64,000 bases of DNA from Saprospiraceae bacterium. Lineage in GTDB: Bacteria; Bacteroidota; Bacteroidia; Chitinophagales; Saprospiraceae. The notes under the pieces were generated by a model. The model was given only the letters and a program-made list of their open reading frames with translations, had not been told where the DNA came from and ran no database searches. This document shows positions 19,218 through 39,824 of the stretch, piece by piece. The stretch spans positions 1 through 64,000 of the forward strand of contig JANQHF010000120.1 of the NCBI GenBank assembly GCA_028282725.1. Direction: 5' to 3'. Within the stretch, counting starts at the first letter, position 1. Each line of letters opens with the position of its first letter. The position numbers and the translations under genes are program-made.

Positions 19218-20042
19218 ATGAAACAGATATTTATTCTAGTCATTTTATTTACATTCACTTTTTCTTTTTCTCTTGCTCAGAGAGTCGAATTTGATCGGGA
19301 TACTCGCATTAGTGACCTCACTCCTGCACTGGAATTATTTGATTCAGCATTTGGTGAAAATAGAATAGAAGGAACGCTTGGAGAAAATGGTGACGATATC
19401 CGGCTGATCTCGAATATCAGAGATATCAGCCTTTTTTCAGCAAATGATGTTGAGGTCAGAGCGGATTCAGTTACGTTCGGCAAGAACACAATGCGAAGAA
19501 CGGATTTCACATTCCATCATGATTATGATCTGGATGCTTATCGTGGATTGACTATCGAGAACAATGGAAATCCAAATGGTGTTAATAATGGCAATCATTG
19601 GACCTTATACGCGGCAAATGATAGTCAAAGACTACTTTTCTCTTCAAATGGTACTCTTGCTGCAACCATTCAATCCGATGGAACTTGTGTTCCTTCAGAT
19701 AATAGATTAAAAAAGAATATTCAACCCTTGTCAAATATCTTAAGCAGAATAATGGCTTTGCAACCAAGCACCTATAACCTTGTTAAATTATCCAACAGAA
19801 ATAAATCAATAGGGTTTGTGGCTCAAAATGTAAAAAAACAATTTCCTGAGTTAGTCTTAGATTTTGCTGGAGAAGGGGCACAATCAACGATGATGGTCAA
19901 TTATGCCGGTATGAGTGTCATTGCTATAAAAGCCATCCAGGAGCAGCAGGTCATTATCGAGGAACAAAAGGACAAATTAGCTGATATGGAAACAAAATTA
20001 AATGGGCTCATAGCACTTGTACAAAAGCTAGAAGGTAAATAA
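19218..20042 (+). CDS. secreted protein with S74 intramolecular-chaperone (tail-fibre) domain
   Basis: 274 aa from ATG 19218; an upstream TTG at 19164 would add residues in front of an otherwise perfect signal peptide (MKQIFILVILFTFTFSFSLAQ), so I prefer the ATG. The middle part is beta-rich and of unknown fold. The C-terminal ~115 residues are an S74 peptidase/intramolecular chaperone domain with the Ser-Lys dyad spacing SDNRLKKNI (Ser160, Lys165), then IGFVAQNVKKQFPELV and a final coiled coil. Such domains trimerise and cut themselves off. This protein lacks the DNA-binding part seen in the S74 protein at 34407. Confidence 0.85.
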   Translation: MKQIFILVILFTFTFSFSLAQRVEFDRDTRISDLTPALELFDSAFGENRIEGTLGENGDDIRLISNIRDISLFSANDVEVRADSVTFGKNTMRRTDFTFHHDYDLDAYRGLTIENNGNPNGVNNGNHWTLYAANDSQRLLFSSNGTLAATIQSDGTCVPSDNRLKKNIQPLSNILSRIMALQPSTYNLVKLSNRNKSIGFVAQNVKKQFPELVLDFAGEGAQSTMMVNYAGMSVIAIKAIQEQQVIIEEQKDKLADMETKLNGLIALVQKLEGK

Positions 20043-31359: not shown

Positions 31360-31482
31360 CTATCTTACTGATTATGAAATGAATATAAGATATTGACTCA
31401 AAAGTATCTCTCTTGAAGGTAATACTGCAAATCTTGAACCAAGAATGCGGTACAGATCTTTTTGACGAAGACCTCATTTAAC

Positions 31483-31527
31483 CACACATTTGTGTGTTTT
31501 TGAAGAAGGCAAATCGAACTTTATTCG
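31483..31527 (+). promoter_or_regulatory. ACACA-N2-TGTGT palindrome, copy 1, with weak -7-like element
   Basis: CACACATTTGTGTG at 31483-31496 is a perfect palindrome. At the spacing found in copies 2 and 3 there is TTTATTCG (31520-31527), a degraded form of the TCnnTTTG element. It precedes the small ORF and the histidine kinase gene. Likely operator of the response regulator encoded at 33712. Confidence 0.6.
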
Positions 31528-31687: not shown

Positions 31688-31777
31688 CACTTCAAAAGAG
31701 GCCATTCTCATATTTCGGATAGATAAATTCAGCAATAATTGTATGTGAAAAAAGTATGTTTCCTAAATTTCGGGATT

Positions 31778-33715
31778 ATGATCTACGATCTGCTTATTAA
31801 AATTTTCAGTGCCATATTCTTGATGTTTCATGCAGTTGCATTTTTTGCAAATGATCAAACTGTAAAAATTGATTCCCTCAAGATAGAATTACAAAGAGCC
31901 ACAGCTCAAGAAGACAAAGCAACTCTATCTGTTCATTTGGCAAGAGAATTTAGGGAACTCTCCATCGATTCATCTTTATTCTATTTCCAGCACGCCACTT
32001 CATTCTTCGACACTTCAGAAGTCACTCCGATTCGAACAGAATATTACTATAACCTTGCAGAAGTCTACCTGATCAGCGGGCAACATCATAAATCATGGGA
32101 AGCTTTGGAGCAAATTTCGGGAAATGAGTTTCGATCAACTGACGAAATATCGAAACCAGATATTCTGGACAAACAGGCGGATGTTAAAATAAGATTGGGA
32201 GAATATGCTGTAGCATCCGAGATTCTCATGGAAGCTCTTCCTCTCTTTGAATCCGGAAATGACAAGGCCGGCCTGGGTGCAGCTTATAATAGTCTAGGTA
32301 CAATTATGCAACGTACGAAAAGACTGAATGAAGCCATCGAGTATTATACACTTGCTCACGAGTCTGCAATTGAGGGGAACGATCTCAGACCGGCACATGG
32401 TTACTTGTCCAATGTGGCTATCGTACATTCTATGCAAAACAATAATCGATTAGCAATCCCCTTGTTCAAGAAAGTCATAGCATTTGCCAAGGATCGAAAA
32501 GAAATAAGAACAGAAGCTCTGGCAAGCGGTAACCTGGGCGTAGTCTACAACGAATTGAATGAGCTCGATTCTGCCGAATTTTATATTTCCAGATCTCTCG
32601 ATTTATTCCAAAAATCAGGACATGGAAGAGGTACTGCCGCAGCCTCAAGCCAATTGTCGGTTATTTACCAGGCCAGAGGGAAATACCAGGAAGTTATCGA
32701 TCTCCTGCTGCCACAATTTGATTTTGTTGAAACACAAAATTTTTCAAATTTTCAAAAGAAGATCGCAGAAAACCTCAGTGTTGCTTATAGGTCTTTGGGC
32801 GACTATCCGAATGCACTAAAATACACCGAAATACTCGGCGAAATTAAAGATTCGACATTCAATAAAGAAATGGTTCAGGCGGTAAATGATGCTCAAATAA
32901 AATATGAAACAGAAAAGAAAGAAGCTGAGATTGAACACCTGAATTTACAAGATCAACTCAATGCAGAAAGGATAGCCCGACAACGATTAGCACTTGGAGG
33001 ATCTGCCATCGGAATCGGTTTATTGTCTTTTTTACTATACAGGCTCAATCACCAAAAAAAGAAATTAGAATCGCAATCTAGGGTTATTGAGAAATCCTTA
33101 GAAGAAAAGGACACCCTTCTCAGAGAAATTCATCACAGAGTCAAGAATAACCTGCAAGTAATTTCTTCTCTCCTTGGTCTGCAATCCCGTAGCCTTGAAG
33201 ACCGGGCAGCAATTGATGCACTTACTCAAAGTAAGGCAAGGGTACAGTCCATGTCACTAATTCATCAGAATCTCTATCAAAAGGACAACCTGACCGGAAT
33301 CAAGATCAAGGATTATTTTGACAAACTTTCCAACAATCTGATCACCACTTATGGCATTTCCCAGGATATAAAGATCAATACAGAAATCGAAGATATGATG
33401 CTGGATGTCGACACTGTCGTGCCCTTAGGTCTCATTCTGAACGAACTGCTGACAAATTCATTGAAATACGCTTTCCAGAATAATCGGGGTTCCATTCAAG
33501 TGGCATTAGCGAGAAATAATGGACAACTTCAATTACAGATCAAAGACGATGGTGTCGGAATTCAAGATGTTGACAAGGTTTTGCAGGGTGAAGGATATGG
33601 ATACGAATTAGTAACTTCCCTTGTGGACAAATTGGAAGGATCCATTGATATCAATTCAGAAGAAGGCACTCAAGTGACCATTGGATTTTCTAACTTCAAA
33701 ATCTTGGACAATTGA
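31778..33715 (+). CDS. TPR-containing sensor histidine kinase (HisKA_2 type)
   Basis: 645 aa from ATG 31778 (a TTG at 31739 would add 13 residues before the signal-like segment [15 protein letters not shown]). Residues ~90-360 are tetratricopeptide repeats ([22 protein letters not shown] and following), followed by a coiled coil, one membrane helix (~404-423), a second coiled coil and a HisKA_2 dimerisation domain with [17 protein letters not shown] (His452/453). A HATPase_c domain follows with [15 protein letters not shown] and DDGVGIQD. The TPR part is probably periplasmic and senses an unknown signal. Its stop overlaps the start of the response regulator gene. Confidence 0.9.
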
Positions 33716-34314
33716 AATTGGATGAACTGAATGTGCTGATCGTCGAAGATGAGGCAATCATTGCAACGGATATAAAATCACTGCTGAGAAAACACGGATG
33801 TGGTATTGCGGGGGCTGCTTATTCTGGTAGTAGAGCCTTCGATATACTTGCAAGCTCGAATCCCAATTTTGTAATTCTGGACATATATCTTGGGAACGGT
33901 CCTTCCGGTATTGATGTAGCTGAGGTCATTCATGACAAGTATAAAATCCCATATATCTTTCTAACTTCCTTTTCTGATGAAGAAACCTTGACTGCGGCTC
34001 AAGAGCATGGTCCTTATGGCTACATTGTGAAACCATTCCAGGAACAGACTCTTTTAACAACTATTTCAGTAGCGTGGAATAATTATAAAAAAAGCAAGGA
34101 ATCACATACCTGGGAATTTGAAAATTCGAATTTCCAATTGTCCAACCAGGAGGTAAAAATTTGCAGACTGCTATGTGACGGTCTTTCTTATAAGCAAATT
34201 TGTGCCGAACTTCACATCGCCATGAACACTTTGAAATTTCATGTGAAAAACATCTACACAAAATGCGACGTATCAGGTCGTGCAGAACTCATCCCGCTTT
34301 TCCTGAATAAATAA
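33712..34314 (+). CDS. LuxR/NarL-type response regulator
   Basis: 200-aa regulator. Receiver domain ~5-125 with the acidic pocket VEDEA (Glu12/Asp13), phosphoacceptor Asp57 in VILDIYL, Thr85 and Lys107. NarL/FixJ-type helix-turn-helix ~137-195 ([21 protein letters not shown], then [15 protein letters not shown]). The start is TTG at 33712, which overlaps the kinase stop in a TTGA tetranucleotide; no ATG is available before the receiver. This implies translational coupling with the kinase. It is the best candidate to bind the three ACACA-N2-TGTGT sites around it. Confidence 0.92.
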
Positions 34315-34344
34315 CCCCGCTTTCCTTCTTGAGGTGTAAATACT

Positions 34345-34388
34345 ACACATATGTGTGGCGGATTGCCGGTGATTAATTGATCTTTTTG
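34345..34388 (+). promoter_or_regulatory. ACACA-N2-TGTGT palindrome, copy 2, with -7-like element
   Basis: ACACATATGTGT (34345-34356), preceded by AATACT, followed at a fixed distance by TCTTTTTG (34381-34388), close to the Bacteroidota -7 consensus TAnnTTTG. Transcription would start near 34395, about 12 nt before the ATG at 34407; the palindrome would then be centred near -44, a class-II activator position. Confidence 0.65.
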
Positions 34389-34406: not shown

Positions 34407-35927
34407 ATGTCAATATCCATTTCACCCAGGGAGTACGAAGTACTGCAACTCATTGCCGACGAATACAACTCCAAAGAAATTGCAGGTCAGCTTTTTATTA
34501 GTGAACATACCGTATTGTCTCATCGTAAAAATTTAATCACCAAGTTGGACGTGCGTAATACAGCGGGTTTAGTCCGGCGGGGTATTGAAACCGGTCTACT
34601 TAAGGTTCAATTCATTCTTCTTTTTATCCCCCTTCTATTCTTTTCTAGTTTGTCAGGCCAAGATCCACATCTTGATGTAGACGGTAGCGTAAAGATCAGG
34701 GGTAGAATAGACATTAGCCGGGCTGACGACAGCACAACTGTCATCCTCGGTACCCATGCAGGAATCGGTCTATTACCTAATACTACAATGAACAATACCT
34801 TCGTCGGATTCAATGCTGGCAGTCTAAATATCGGAGATGGTCAAGGAGGAAATATGGCGGGTGATAATAATTCATTTTTTGGTTCTGAAGCAGGTAAGTT
34901 TAACACTACAGGAGTAGACAATTCATTTTTTGGTTCCGATGCAGGGAGACTGAATTCTACTGGAGGGGACAACTCATTTTTTGGTTCCGATGCCGGAAGA
35001 AATAATTCAACCGGAGAGGACAATTCTTTTTTTGGAAGAGATGCTGGAAGAGATAATACTTCAGGGAGGGATAATTCCTTTTTTGGTTCCGATGCCGGAA
35101 GGAATGGCTATAACGGTTCCCGCAATACTTTTCTTGGCGCGAGTTCAGGTCAAGACTTTTCCATATTCCCGGATTCATTAGACAGAGCCATTGCCATCGG
35201 TCACAATGCCAAAGTAGGATGTCATAAGTGTGCCGTCATCGGGGGTACAGGGCAAGATGCTGTCAGGCTTGGTGTTGGTACCACGTCTCCCGAAACACTT
35301 CTGCACATAGAAAGTAGTGATAACAATGAAGTATTGCTTAGCGATATGGGGAATGTGGTAAGTATCAAAATGCAAACTCGCCCCACCCTATCTGGTCTGA
35401 ATTGGAACATGAAGGCAAAGTCGGAACCAACCGGGGGGAATTCGTCAGATGCAGCAATAATTTTTCAGTATGGCCAGGACTCTCTTTTCAGGATAAAAGG
35501 TGATGGTAATGCCACGCTTGCCGGCACCCTAACTGAAAACAGCGACCGCAGACTAAAGACAAACATTGAGGTATTAACAGGTGTACTTCCACAATTGCTA
35601 CAGCTTCATGGCTATAGCTATGACTGGATGAACAGAAGTAAGTCATACAACCGCCAAATCGGCCTTTTGGCACAAGAGGTCAGTGATGTATTTCCCGAGC
35701 TTATCCAGGAGGATAATAATGGAGTGCTATCCGTGAGTTATACGAGGTTTGTACCCTTACTGATTGAAGGGCTCAGGGAACAGAATGAACGAGCCAAATG
35801 GCAAAAGGAAAACATAAATGCTCTTCTTGAAGAAAACGGCGTACTCAATCTGAGACTGAATCAGCTTGAAAGAACCGTTCATATGCTCTTGGAACAACAG
35901 CCCGCCAAAAAATCTTTTCATAAATAA
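34407..35927 (+). CDS. membrane-tethered LuxR-type HTH protein with extracytoplasmic repeats and S74 self-cleaving domain
   Basis: 506 aa from ATG 34407. Residues ~5-63 are a complete LuxR/NarL helix-turn-helix (ISPREYEVLQLIADEYNSKEIA, ISEHTVLSHRKNLITKL). Residues ~67-83 are one hydrophobic helix (VQFILLFIPLLFFSSL). Residues ~125-240 are 17-residue repeats of the form NSFFGSDAGRxNSTGxD. Residues ~375-500 are an S74 intramolecular-chaperone peptidase with the Ser-Lys dyad SDRRLKTNI (Ser379, Lys384), IGLLAQEVSDVFPELI and a terminal coiled coil. The DNA-binding part would be cytoplasmic and the rest outside. The nearest analogy is eukaryotic MYRF, where an S74-type domain releases a DNA-binding part. 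No receiver domain. A TTG at 34377 could add ten residues. Confidence 0.85.
   Translation: MSISISPREYEVLQLIADEYNSKEIAGQLFISEHTVLSHRKNLITKLDVRNTAGLVRRGIETGLLKVQFILLFIPLLFFSSLSGQDPHLDVDGSVKIRGRIDISRADDSTTVILGTHAGIGLLPNTTMNNTFVGFNAGSLNIGDGQGGNMAGDNNSFFGSEAGKFNTTGVDNSFFGSDAGRLNSTGGDNSFFGSDAGRNNSTGEDNSFFGRDAGRDNTSGRDNSFFGSDAGRNGYNGSRNTFLGASSGQDFSIFPDSLDRAIAIGHNAKVGCHKCAVIGGTGQDAVRLGVGTTSPETLLHIESSDNNEVLLSDMGNVVSIKMQTRPTLSGLNWNMKAKSEPTGGNSSDAAIIFQYGQDSLFRIKGDGNATLAGTLTENSDRRLKTNIEVLTGVLPQLLQLHGYSYDWMNRSKSYNRQIGLLAQEVSDVFPELIQEDNNGVLSVSYTRFVPLLIEGLREQNERAKWQKENINALLEENGVLNLRLNQLERTVHMLLEQQPAKKSFHK
34860..35120 (+). repeat. in-frame 51-bp tandem repeats
   Basis: About five copies of a 51-bp unit (starting near 34862, 34916, 34967, 35018, 35069), each encoding the 17-residue NSFFGSDAGR-type unit. 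The units are highly similar at the DNA level, so copy number may vary by slippage or recombination. Confidence 0.88.
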
Positions 35928-35958
35928 CTGAGCAGGATTATTAGACTTGGTCAATACT

Positions 35959-36002
35959 ACACAGATGTGTGGTGAAAGAGAACAGTCAATACATTCTCTT
36001 TG
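35959..36002 (+). promoter_or_regulatory. ACACA-N2-TGTGT palindrome, copy 3, with -7-like element
   Basis: ACACAGATGTGT (35959-35970), preceded by AATACT and followed by GG exactly as in copy 2, with TCTCTTTG (35995-36002) at the same distance. The DNA behind the element is also alike in both copies (GATnnATAAA). Precedes the secreted 670-aa protein. Confidence 0.65.
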
Positions 36003-36024
36003 ATCTATAAATAAAGTGACTGAT

Positions 36025-38037
36025 ATGACTTTTTTAGTTAGAAAAAAGAGACGAACCGATATTACATTCAACGGGTGTCTTGTCATCATTACTTTACTGT
36101 TAATCTTCACTATCGACTCTTCGGCACAGGTAAATGATTATACGCCTCCTGGGGAATGGAAAGAGTTTACCATTCGGTCAATTGATGGAGGTCAATATTT
36201 ACTAATTGATGGAGTCGATGTAAGTGATGATACCCTTACTTATCTCTTAGTCGACGAAGAAATGCTTCTTTTAGAACATGATTCGTCTTTGACTCAAATC
36301 AATTATATAGAAAAAACCGGTGACACTCTTTACTTTTTCTTTACACATGCCACTGGGTTAAAAGACATTGTTTACGTGCATGATGGTCAAATTACCGTTG
36401 TGCCTGGAAATCAGGAATGGGCTGAAGGAATTCTTACACCTGTAGAAATGTCGGATGGAACATTGTTTGCCGACCTGACATATGTGGCTTCGGGGTTCAA
36501 ACATCCGGTAGTCATTTCAACTTCCGGGGTACAAATATTAGATGGAAATCCTTATAGATTCATTGCACATGAACGTCACAATAATGAAGATCGGGTGTAT
36601 TCCTATTACGAAGATCTAGCCGGTAATTATTTCCTAGGCTACTACGACATCCATAAAGGATTTTATTTGACAGACATAGAATCACGTGGATTTAATCTCA
36701 TTTCTGACAACCCAAGTGATACGACCCATGCAATTATCACTAATCACTCTGATAGTCTTTTTGAAAGCAAATTATTTAAAGTGGTCGATACAAGTTTTGT
36801 TGAAATTTCCATTCCTGGCGGACCCTATGATCAGATAGATCTTTTATATCGAAATGATGACACCAATACTTCATTGTTCCAACTAACGGACTACGATGAG
36901 AATAAAAAACTGGCTAAGAGAGTTAATGGAATCTGGACGGAATTGACAGAAAGTCTTCCGCCATTTATTGGAATATCAAAAAAAAACCAGTCAGGGAATG
37001 AGGCATTCTTTGACGTCACGATTACAACTAAGGACCGTCAATTTTGGTATTATCAAAGCACAGCACTTGGAGATACCCTGGCTAATATTACCCCACCCGG
37101 AGGTCCATTTGATCACATACACTATTTGAGATACTCTTTTGATTTTCCGCTTTCCTTTGAATTCGAAGATAGTATTGACAATGAGTATATGTATGCTTTT
37201 TGGAATGCTCAAGGAAATCTCATTCCTCCTACTCCGGTACTAATGAATCCCAATGGAGATCCTGCCAAAAGAGTAGATCTCAAAGAAAACGGCGTACACA
37301 TTTTTGAATATGATACTCATGATCATGTCTATCATCAAGCTGTGCAAGGTGGTCCCCTGACTTTATTAAATAACCACATGAATGCCGATGGTCAAACTGT
37401 TTGTTCATCGGACAATTTTGTCCTGGTTGATCTTTCTCTTCATGACGGAACAGAAGAATTCCTTTATTACAATCTGGACACGGTGGTTCAATTTGACCTC
37501 CCAGCACGTGACAGTGTTGGCCTCCATCGATTAAAGTCATTCGGAGAATTGGGATGTGCAATCGAAACCATAAAATCGAATACCCAAAGTGATTCCAATA
37601 TTTATACCTACACGTTAATTGATGATCAATTAATCAATATCACCCATCCAAGATGGAGAAATTTCGACATCCAAAACAGTAATGCATACGATGATAAAGA
37701 ATTCATCGGAGATATAAATCATGTTGATGGAACCGGGAAAGTGCGACTTTGGGCAATCACCAGTGAACCTCGCAGGAATAATAGTTGTCGACCTGATTAT
37801 AAATTCATCCAGGAAGAAAGTTATGAACCTGTATCTGTCAGACCAGGAGAGAATCATAGTTATCTGGCAAAAAAATTATATCTGGGAACACGACTTCCCA
37901 AACTCCCTGTTGGACCAGGCGGAAGGGTGCCCAGTTATGAATTTCGCTTTAATCAATCTATAGAAATGATGCCAGGTACAACTGTTGATTCGGAATTTGA
38001 TTTTACGGTTTCTTCTATGAACTGCGACGTAAATTAA
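36025..38037 (+). CDS. large secreted protein of unknown function
   Basis: 670 aa from ATG 36025 (GTG 36016 would add three residues). After a basic N-terminus (RKKRRTD) comes a signal sequence (CLVIITLLLIFTIDSSAQ). The mature part is acidic and beta-rich, with recurring short motifs such as GGPYDQI, GGPFDHI and Y-x-Y-x-D, which may be propeller-like blades. I do not recognise a family, and no type IX sorting domain is visible. It shares its promoter layout with the HTH-S74 gene, so it is probably an output of the same two-component system. The gene ends tail to tail with the DUF4198-like gene. Confidence 0.8.
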   Translation: MTFLVRKKRRTDITFNGCLVIITLLLIFTIDSSAQVNDYTPPGEWKEFTIRSIDGGQYLLIDGVDVSDDTLTYLLVDEEMLLLEHDSSLTQINYIEKTGDTLYFFFTHATGLKDIVYVHDGQITVVPGNQEWAEGILTPVEMSDGTLFADLTYVASGFKHPVVISTSGVQILDGNPYRFIAHERHNNEDRVYSYYEDLAGNYFLGYYDIHKGFYLTDIESRGFNLISDNPSDTTHAIITNHSDSLFESKLFKVVDTSFVEISIPGGPYDQIDLLYRNDDTNTSLFQLTDYDENKKLAKRVNGIWTELTESLPPFIGISKKNQSGNEAFFDVTITTKDRQFWYYQSTALGDTLANITPPGGPFDHIHYLRYSFDFPLSFEFEDSIDNEYMYAFWNAQGNLIPPTPVLMNPNGDPAKRVDLKENGVHIFEYDTHDHVYHQAVQGGPLTLLNNHMNADGQTVCSSDNFVLVDLSLHDGTEEFLYYNLDTVVQFDLPARDSVGLHRLKSFGELGCAIETIKSNTQSDSNIYTYTLIDDQLINITHPRWRNFDIQNSNAYDDKEFIGDINHVDGTGKVRLWAITSEPRRNNSCRPDYKFIQEESYEPVSVRPGENHSYLAKKLYLGTRLPKLPVGPGGRVPSYEFRFNQSIEMMPGTTVDSEFDFTVSSMNCDVN

Positions 38038-38109: not shown

Positions 38110-39042
38110 TTATGCTCTTCCCGGTCGTGTTACCAAGTAAAGAATAATGGCCAAAAGCAAAAACCCAATTACCCAAACATATAAAGACAATGCATGGCTG
38201 TGATCCGATGTAACTTGAGCATCATCACCTATCTGGAATGTCAACGTCGCCCAATTGGATTCATGCGTCAGGTCTTCTTCCTCAGAAGTGACCAAATGAA
38301 TTGTTCTGAAATACCACTTTCCCGGGCTTGAAATCTTAACTTTGACAATTCCTTCAGCATTCGTTCTTAGGCTGGTTTCATTGTGGGTGTGTTCTTTCCC
38401 CTCTTCGTCATGTGAATGACTATGGGATTCTGTACCGAGGTAAACCAATTGATCAGCAAGGAATTCTCCGTCCCGGAGAAGCCTAACAGCCATCTCATCC
38501 CCTACTTCAAGTTCATATGGATTTTGAAGTGGAATGAATTCAATAGGGTATCCTAGTTCAACCTGCCAATCATCCGTTATGACATCTCCTATCTGGAAAA
38601 TGGCCTTAACATGCTTGCTGTATTTCTCATGTGCATCATCGTCAATTGTACCCTTTCGTTTTCTTTGATCAAGCACATCCAGAACACCGTCGTGCTCCAG
38701 GTAGTCATTAAAATCTTCGGCTGCCATCTCAAGCGATCTTGGTGCAGTTGATACACCGGCAACCCATGTTCCCATTTCACCTGTGATGAAGTTGAGGACT
38801 GTGGTTGCTCCAACATTCATCCACATGCTGTCCGGTTGCCTTTCTCTTAGTCCACTGCCAACGAGACTAACGTCCAGCATGCGGTCCCGCGTAATAAAAT
38901 TATCACTTCGATCAAACGTACCATTATATAAGTGAAGACTTGCCGCTTTCTCCGGCATTAGAAAGAAAGAATCAAATTTCAGGAACATGTCATGGCTGGA
39001 CAGGACAACCAAAGCCAATAGAAGCACGAATAGTCTTTTCAT
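38110..39042 (-). CDS. DUF4198-like exported protein with C-terminal membrane anchor
   Basis: 310 aa from ATG 39042, which gives a signal peptide (MKRLFVLLLALVVLSSHDMFL). The frame stays open another 100 codons upstream, but that part reads through a repeat element and is not credible. The start SHDMFLKFDSFFL and the beta-sandwich with LVYLGTESHSHSHDEEGKEHTHNE, then GKWYFRTIHLV, are as in DUF4198 proteins linked to metal uptake. The His-rich loop may bind metal. A C-terminal helix (LYVWVIGFLLLAIILYLV) anchors it. No transporter is adjacent. Confidence 0.8.
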   Translation of the reverse strand: MKRLFVLLLALVVLSSHDMFLKFDSFFLMPEKAASLHLYNGTFDRSDNFITRDRMLDVSLVGSGLRERQPDSMWMNVGATTVLNFITGEMGTWVAGVSTAPRSLEMAAEDFNDYLEHDGVLDVLDQRKRKGTIDDDAHEKYSKHVKAIFQIGDVITDDWQVELGYPIEFIPLQNPYELEVGDEMAVRLLRDGEFLADQLVYLGTESHSHSHDEEGKEHTHNETSLRTNAEGIVKVKISSPGKWYFRTIHLVTSEEEDLTHESNWATLTFQIGDDAQVTSDHSHALSLYVWVIGFLLLAIILYLVTRPGRA

Positions 39043-39159
39043 AACCTGGAATTGAGGGAATAAATATAGATGATAATACGGTTTACGGGGGACGGAATGA
39101 CGGAGGTCAATGGCAAATCGTCCAAAGTCGAACGTAAACTCTAAAAATAGTGAGCACAA

Positions 39160-39335
39160 GCCCCGTAGGCGCGAAATTATCTGTAGCCCGGGATGAGTGC
39201 GGAGCACGTAACCCCGGAGCGGAATAACCAAGGACACAGCAGTTTTGGCGCATATTCTTGAAATAAAGAATTGTGACAAAACATTTTTTTGACGGTAGAT
39301 GATATACGGTGGACGGAAATAAGGAATAGATAAAC
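39160..39335. repeat. direct repeat, copy 1 (~176 bp)
   Basis: By eye about 90% identical to the stretch at 39559-39733. Both contain GCCCCGTAGG, TGTAGCCCGGG, GAGTGCGGAGCACGTAACC and ATTCTTG segments. GC-rich head with palindromes, AT-rich tail. No coding sense; the frames that read through both copies give similar peptides only because the DNA is repeated. Confidence 0.9.
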
Positions 39336-39370
39336 AAATCAACATATAAACAACATACCCATGCTCAAGT

Positions 39371-39448: not shown

Positions 39449-39500
39449 TCCATGGATGATGGTCAATAGTCCATAGTTAATGGTTCATGGTTCATGGTGG
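39449..39500. repeat. short degenerate repeats of the GGTCCATGG/GGTTCATGG kind
   Basis: A run of imperfect 8-10-bp units (GTCCATGG, GGTCAATAG, TCCATAG, GGTTCATGG twice) between the two copies of the direct repeat; part of a gene-free gap 39043-39850. Confidence 0.7.
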
Positions 39501-39558
39501 ATAAACAATTAAGAACAAACAAAATGGTGGAATATCCAAAATCAAAGACTTATCAAAA

Positions 39559-39733
39559 GCCCCGTAGGGGCGGAATATCTGTAGCCCGGGGTGAGTGCGG
39601 AGCACGTAACCACGGAGCGGAATAACCAAGGACACAGCAGTTTTGGCGCATATTCTTGTAATCAAGAATTGTGACAAAACAATATTTTGACGGTAGACGA
39701 TTAACGATGGACGGAAATAAGCAATAAATAAAC
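39559..39733. repeat. direct repeat, copy 2 (~175 bp)
   Basis: Second copy, 399 bp from the first. Here the palindromes are perfect: GCCCC-GTA-GGGGC (39559-39571) and ATTCTTG-TAAT-CAAGAAT (39652-39669), whereas copy 1 has mismatches in both. It is probably the younger or conserved copy. Confidence 0.9.
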
Positions 39734-39824
39734 AGTTCAACACATAGATAACATCTGATCTTACCTTCACAAATCATTAACCCATTCGGTCAGGATCTAC
39801 ATCAGGGATCGATCCGACCATTGC

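Follow-up and report, generated by a model that had tools for sequence, protein, structure and literature searches.

Why should a protein with a fibre domain that is predicted to cut itself begin with a complete DNA-binding domain? The question is raised by an open reading frame of 506 residues within the 64,000-nucleotide stretch of DNA analysed here (the window), in which the following parts were distinguished.

34407..35927, + strand: fused gene encoding a helix-turn-helix (HTH), a signal-peptide-like stretch, repeats, an S74 domain and a long helix (Pfam, predicted structure)
34416..34577, + strand: LuxR/GerE-type HTH, residues 4-57 (Pfam, structure model, Foldseek)
34602..34658, + strand: hydrophobic stretch, residues 66-84, a predicted signal peptide with a predicted cut between Gly84 and Gln85
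34794..35156, + strand: repeat stalk, residues about 130-250, with 17-residue units mid-stalk (translation, model)
35541..35702, + strand: S74 core, residues 379-432, with Ser379 at 35541-35543 and Lys384 at 35556-35558
35739..35897, + strand: predicted C-terminal long helix, a probable coiled coil, residues 445-497 (structure model)

The initial annotation had described a complete LuxR-type HTH, tandem 17-residue repeats and an S74 domain with an intact Ser-Lys dyad on one chain, and all three were recovered. The Pfam GerE family (PF00196) matched residues 4-57 with 57.9 bits (E 7.9e-16), above the curated cut-off of 23.5, and the predicted four-helix fold resembles LiaR/GerE [Foldseek on the model: 4wt0, TMt 0.88; 1fse, 0.76]. 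Five tandem 17-residue units, each starting NSFFG, can be read in the translation. Peptidase_S74 matched residues 379-432 with 52.1 bits (E 8.2e-14; cut-off 22), and the SDxxxK dyad is encoded by intact codons (Ser379 AGC, Lys384 AAG). Among 40 aligned relatives, S379, D380, R382 and K384 are each retained in at least 90%. Profile searches matched a phage long-tail-fibre subunit (6f45, 9.1e-17) and MYRF (7dc3, 1.3e-9), and Foldseek on the monomer model gave a weak match of the S74 part to 3gw6 (E 0.044, rmsd 19.7). A second S74 match in the window lies at 19569-20018, in a 301-residue frame.

We considered a phage tail fibre gene, since S74 matches tail-fibre families, but rejected this candidate because the gene has no phage neighbourhood at 28-41.5 kb. 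The seven neighbours scanned there showed no phage structural, packaging or replication families; they are a glycerol-3-phosphate acyltransferase/HAD protein, a kinase, a regulator, a DUF4198 protein, an ABC-transporter ATPase and two proteins without a Pfam match.

A translation start after the HTH was also ruled out, as no ATG, GTG or TTG codon occurs in frame between residue 49 (itself a GTG, within the HTH) and residue 82 (in the hydrophobic core). The ATG at 34407 coincides with the start of all nine aligned fused homologues, starts that are themselves gene predictions. In a search of 5.8 billion proteins, 7994 candidates were scored and 1246 matched; among the 120 matches listed, eight further proteins carry both Pfam domains (P0002-P0006 and P0009-P0011), and P0020 (357 residues) has the HTH without S74. 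Seven proteins from this search and 17 from the genomic loci described below (L139 and L230 being one) make 24 distinct fused proteins, including one truncated by a contig end (L229), one ending at residue 119 (L077) and one with a weak hydrophobic core (L231). The order of HTH, hydrophobic stretch and S74, which the initial annotation proposed to look for in other genomes, was found again, and 24 distinct fused proteins rule out a chance fusion or frame error.

Among the segments compared, conservation was highest in the HTH, with a mean pairwise identity of 69.2% over ten aligned fused-type proteins. In the same ten, the head region reached 68%, the repeats 46% and the hydrophobic stretch, the least conserved segment, 17.6%; for S74 the value was 65.8% (28 pairs; P0009 and P0020 excluded). 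Loss of DNA-binding residues from the HTH, which the initial annotation had named as a reason to abandon its reading, was not what we found. R40, K41, N42 and K46 are retained in 22, 22, 21 and 23 of 23 fused HTHs, in 108, 91, 89 and 115 of 116 stand-alone (solo) HTHs, and in 59, 59, 59 and 61 of 61 HTHs that stand at the C-terminus of other proteins, a set that excluded proteins matching the window's receiver. The base-contact residues of NarL we take to be K188, V189 and K192. The HTH half is thus predicted, from its sequence, to bind DNA. We give scarcely any chance to the idea that it is idle, a by-product of gene fusion in what is otherwise an S74 fibre whose leader is unusual. Four S74 relatives (P0007, P0012, P0013 and P0014) do lack the HTH and have an ordinary-looking leader at the matching position, which suits that idea; an idle domain, however, should not be the most conserved segment, nor share its core residues with those retained in the 61 C-terminal HTHs, nor be fused repeatedly to different partners. 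The leaders of the same four relatives end in a similar site, followed by a common motif around L[DE]VEG.

The initial annotation had called the protein membrane-tethered through a single membrane helix. One hydrophobic stretch is indeed present, at residues 66-84, but it bears the marks of a cleavable signal peptide, and the reading as a tether found no support. Small residues at -3/-1 follow the hydrophobic core in 24 of 24 fused proteins, compared with 17 of 24 inner helices of kinases, and Gln at +1 occurs in 18 of 24 against two of 24. Gln+1 is therefore the more discriminating of the two features. Signal peptides were called by one fixed, home-made and permissive rule, and since 86 plain S74 leaders (79 with Gln) were chosen by this same rule, they illustrate the pattern rather than test it. 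Low sequence conservation combined with a retained cutting site indicates that the stretch behaves like a signal peptide, and it is better read as a cleavable one, with the cut predicted between Gly84 and Gln85. The Sec-type features seen in the fused protein (core, small -3/-1 residues, Gln+1) stand behind a 65-residue domain; a folded domain of this size ahead of a signal peptide is unusual. This genome contains a match to the signal peptidase I family, as well as a strong and a weaker one to the M50 (site-2) protease family. The former (G000:C4:53185-54252) falls in a long frame of 543 residues, in two separate pieces.

A hydrophobic stretch of such length can also remain as a membrane anchor. 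The protein could then be an uncut one-component regulator resembling ToxR, in which S74 trimerisation outside the cell membrane joins the HTHs inside and alters their binding to DNA. The structure model is compatible with this possibility, as it draws one continuous helix through residues 52-83 in which HTH helix 4 continues into the hydrophobic helix, and the basic residues that precede and the acidic residues that follow the stretch suit an N-in/C-out orientation. We nevertheless regard an uncut regulator as unlikely, given a stretch conserved at about 18% that keeps a signal-peptidase-like site in all 24 proteins and Gln+1 in 18. Furthermore, LuxR HTHs bind as dimers, whereas S74 forms trimers. 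According to the available part of a survey of transmembrane regulators, such regulators are enriched in Bacteroidota (PMC10269533), which speaks for an anchor. ToxR/CadC-type regulators are described there as having a cytoplasmic DNA-binding domain, a hydrophobic segment and an outside part, as here; the fused protein differs in its LuxR-type HTH, in having a fibre in place of a sensor and in its signal-peptidase-like site. LuxR, GerE and S74 are nowhere named in the main text of that survey, as available; nor are S74 and LuxR in the available main text of a survey on membrane-bound regulators in vertebrates from 2026.

A release of the HTH by S74 self-cleavage, as in MYRF, was considered as well. 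MYRF likewise combines a DNA-binding domain and an S74/ICA Ser-Lys dyad in one membrane-passing protein (PMC3742443, as far as the source was available). In MYRF, however, the ICA lies between the DNA-binding domain and the membrane helix, and self-cleavage frees the factor (same source). The fused protein has the order HTH, hydrophobic stretch, S74, which would place S74 outside. Because S74 is on the far side of the hydrophobic stretch, its self-cleavage cannot free the HTH in the MYRF manner, and we rejected this mechanism on topology.

We then asked in what company the HTH occurs. The HTH-leader query matched in 46 of 150 same-family genomes at E<=1e-15 and in 29 of 398 genomes at E<=1e-18, the second draw overlapping the first. 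Three genomes (G042, G050 and G149) held 16, 13 and 11 matches at E<=1e-15, with solo, fused and other forms pooled. A first set of 77 loci, part of the matches listed, was examined together with the window and contained 85 N-terminal HTH frames, namely 12 fused and 73 solo (66-127 residues). Even under a lax rule, four of the 73 solo HTHs had a signal-peptide-like stretch and 69 had none, which tells against the uncut regulator. Of 46 solo HTHs with a next same-strand gene of at least 120 aa, 40 are followed by one that encodes a signal peptide, compared with 120 of 332 background genes (p=3.5e-11), and 11 by an S74 gene, versus seven of 332. Four solo HTHs of the first set lay at the end of a stretch. 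A gene on the opposite strand or another HTH gene followed in 21 of 73 cases in the first set and six of 38 in the later one. The gene upstream of the solo HTH was also enriched in signal peptides, to a lesser degree (22/36, p=0.006).

In a pre-set test on 40 further loci, including four (L230, L235, L242 and L250) already present in the 74-locus scan described next, the effect was weaker: the next gene had a signal peptide in 17 of 25 cases versus 77 of 162 (p=0.08) and S74 in three of 25 versus 10 of 162. A wider genome scan, of which we took the best 80 of at least 590 loci, gave 74 loci that were new relative to the first set; 11 of these had an N-terminal HTH frame, nine in records labelled Saprospiraceae and two at Flavobacteriales contig starts, which may be cut regulators.

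An HTH prefix of the same kind is fused to exported proteins without an S74 match, with partners that match Laminin_G_3, Peptidase_M43, GCX_COOH, GBD_T9SS_assoc and PPC. The partner is a laminin-G protein in L071 and an M43 metalloprotease in L072; GCX_COOH ends the fused proteins of L068, L070 and L072, and the GBD_T9SS_assoc fusion of L069 runs past the contig end. These fusions are a further point against an uncut regulator driven by S74 trimers. They also imply that the prefix cannot in general serve a mechanism dependent on S74 chemistry. The earlier suggestion that S74 reports to the chromosome consequently found no support, with the prefix on non-S74 proteins and 73 of the 85 N-terminal HTHs solo. 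We read the fused gene as the joined version of a cassette of a solo HTH and a secreted gene, found in part of the inferred family Saprospiraceae. Solo and fused forms are intermixed on an HTH tree (154 of 200 sequences, with 15 of the 61 C-terminal HTHs; 63 columns) that is poorly resolved: the best tree has 14 changes between the forms, only two of them forced by supported branches, and the attempt to count fusion events from it was abandoned for this reason. Two or three solo LuxR mini-genes stand together in L078, L112, L114 and L233, as if locally copied.

In L080, a solo HTH gene and a secreted gene overlap by 4 bp, and this occurs twice. Such overlaps, and the presence of HTH and predicted export signal on a single chain in the fused protein, would suit an action in cis, in which the nascent HTH binds near its own gene during export and keeps that gene at the membrane, in the manner of transertion, without regulatory targets elsewhere. 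Solo HTHs, however, would have lost this physical link, and we consider a cis action very improbable.

How might the cassette be switched? The fused gene stands behind a two-component pair, and similar palindromes precede the kinase gene, the fused gene and the gene that follows; the initial annotation had mentioned neither the pair nor the palindromes.

31482..31497, no strand: imperfect palindrome, one mismatch to YYACMCANNTGKGTRR, ahead of the kinase gene
31739..33715, + strand: sensor histidine kinase with a predicted signal peptide, TPR repeats, HisKA_2 and HATPase_c
33712..34314, + strand: response regulator with a receiver and a C-terminal LuxR HTH, overlapping the kinase gene by four bases
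34343..34358, no strand: palindrome CTACACATATGTGTGG in the 92-bp gap ahead of the fused gene, a likely response-regulator site (predicted)
35957..35972, no strand: palindrome CTACACAGATGTGTGG ahead of the next gene
36016..38037, + strand: next gene, predicted to encode a secreted protein; no match in Pfam, NCBIfam or PHROGs

Further on, the frames at 38110-39345 and 39492-39770 (minus strand) have the translated stretch ICAKTAVSLVIPLRGYVLRTHPGLQI in common, a repeated element. Kinase, regulator and HTH (solo or fused) follow one another in this order in the window and in L062, L063, L081, L229, L243 and L264, and in the window, L063, L081, L243 and L264 a secreted-type gene comes next. L243 has two adjacent HTH frames and a regulator with a different kind of DNA-binding end; in L080 the kinase is located after the secreted gene.

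The palindrome has arms YYAC[C/A]CA and a 2-bp spacer. In 5.06 Mb of this genome, the only exact occurrences of CTACACANATGTGTGG are the CTACACATATGTGTGG and CTACACAGATGTGTGG copies, and with up to two mismatches there are 12 matches, compared with six for a reversed-pattern control. Across 733 kb, YYACMCANNTGKGTRR with up to one mismatch occurred at 23 sites against 4.25 ± 2.1 in shuffles, an enrichment that is partly circular because the pattern was derived from the first loci; 20 of the 23 sites are intergenic. The 74 later loci contained two perfect YYACMCANNTGKGTRR sites, both in the 11 N-terminal-HTH loci (92.8 kb), and two one-mismatch sites among the 63 other loci. In the 40 further loci we found seven sites, six of them perfect and all seven intergenic, against 1.65 ± 1.2 expected from shuffles, two being shared with the 74-locus set. 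Only some cassettes have the palindrome. Among 5-base-arm palindromes ahead of 129 HTH genes, TCACC-N6-GGTGA ranked first (seven loci versus at most four in 20 shuffles).

Exact copies of the general palindrome numbered 25 in 13 cassette genomes versus 24 (12 in G019) for the reversed control, and four versus six in 13 genomes without an HTH-leader match. With control counts so similar, the case rests on the location of the palindrome and not on frequency alone. Ten of the 25 exact sites lie in known HTH cassettes; of the other 15, six are next to kinase/regulator or S74 genes, whereas the remaining nine are not. In L290 and L297, whose examined stretches lack an HTH gene, the palindrome stands 55 and 94 bp upstream of S74 genes.

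The response regulator is probably the protein that binds the palindrome. TCACC sites go with KT[HY] in the recognition helix of the regulator and the other variants with K[YF]H, in agreement at 15 of 15 loci, two of which (L291 and L298) postdate the formulation of the rule. We rejected this agreement as independent support, since it amounts to one change on the regulator tree. In L264 the variant tracks the regulator, while the HTH falls outside the supported clade of L062, L081, L139 and L229, and in L291 it tracks the regulator at a locus without an N-terminal HTH. These two loci speak for the regulator, rather than the HTH, as the binder.

Alternatively, the HTH half itself could bind the palindrome and autoregulate the cassette, the kinase pair acting on something else. 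Twelve of the 23 sites lie at most 400 bp ahead of N-terminal-HTH genes (one of them within a coding frame), as such autoregulation would have it. The palindrome is also found, however, beside kinase/regulator or S74 genes in five stretches without an N-terminal HTH gene (L290, L291, L296, L297 and L299), and together with the behaviour of the variants in L264 and L291 this makes binding by the HTH a poor prospect, even though the 15 agreements amount to a single tree change. The 5-base-arm count ahead of the 129 HTH genes, set against shuffles, yielded no palindrome of the HTH's own. Two candidates were dismissed: TACCC-N4-GGGTA (four loci) is part of the same pattern and within the shuffle range; the count for CATGATCATG (three loci) also falls in that range.

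Our preferred reading, which we hold to be somewhat likelier right than wrong, is that an HTH has been placed before the signal peptide, predicted to be cleavable, of an S74 fibre, that export would divide the chain into an HTH stub and a fibre, and that the kinase/regulator pair probably switches the cassette. The pair would turn on the fused gene, probably through the palindrome. The chain of HTH and fibre would then be exported and cut by signal peptidase I after Gly84, leaving an HTH stub of about 84 residues at the inner membrane face. Outside, the fibre would trimerise and shed its own S74 part, as has been reported for Bd3182 of Bdellovibrio. The stub may stay on the inner face, or a site-2 protease may release it. 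RseP, in E. coli, is reported to contribute to the elimination of signal peptides (PMC8144685, as far as available). The HTH half would most likely serve as a local regulator, one copy being produced for every exported protein. More tentatively, and with less than even odds, one may extend this to DNA-binding domains placed ahead of the export signals of unrelated exported proteins, where each export would free a membrane-bound regulator and the cell would thereby count its exports.

If the cut occurs, the usually discarded leader peptide would itself be a gene regulator and would report protein export in a very simple way. The idea, if true, would also assign a function to LuxR mini-genes, which are numerous next to secreted proteins in some genomes. 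With its solo and fused forms, a shared palindrome and an adjacent kinase/regulator pair, the cassette lends itself to direct tests, and the protein offers a bacterial setting in which an S74 fibre can be compared with MYRF.

Known systems resemble parts of this arrangement. Self-cleavage has been reported for Bd3182, one of the mosaic adhesive trimeric (MAT) S74 fibres of Bdellovibrio bacteriovorus (PMC10769870). These too are bacterial chromosomal fibres with a signal peptide and a C-terminal self-cleaving S74 domain with SDxxxK, features predicted for the fused protein; the part of that paper available mentions no DNA-binding domain ahead of the signal peptide. GerE-type mini-regulators (1fse, 6jqs) match in HTH fold, and GerE likewise stands alone, with a comparable length (chains of about 70 residues); the difference is that the HTH here accompanies an exported protein or is joined to it. 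NarL/LuxR two-component regulators are represented by the adjoining response regulator, which is of that type and has a palindromic site; the difference is that the pair here is local, with a palindrome of its own. In the literature searched (mostly non-subscription) on LuxR-S74, ICA membrane factors, LuxR-signal peptide and LuxR solos, no such cassette is described.

A scan of viral contigs gave nine loci, and the six examined contained five HTH frames, all of at most 196 residues. Two of these contigs, L220 (2992-3309) and L225 (2998-3360), carry frames of 105-120 residues with a LuxR HTH and then a hydrophobic stretch. Residues 6-104 of the fused protein, a range extending past the HTH, match the phage family phrog_3282.
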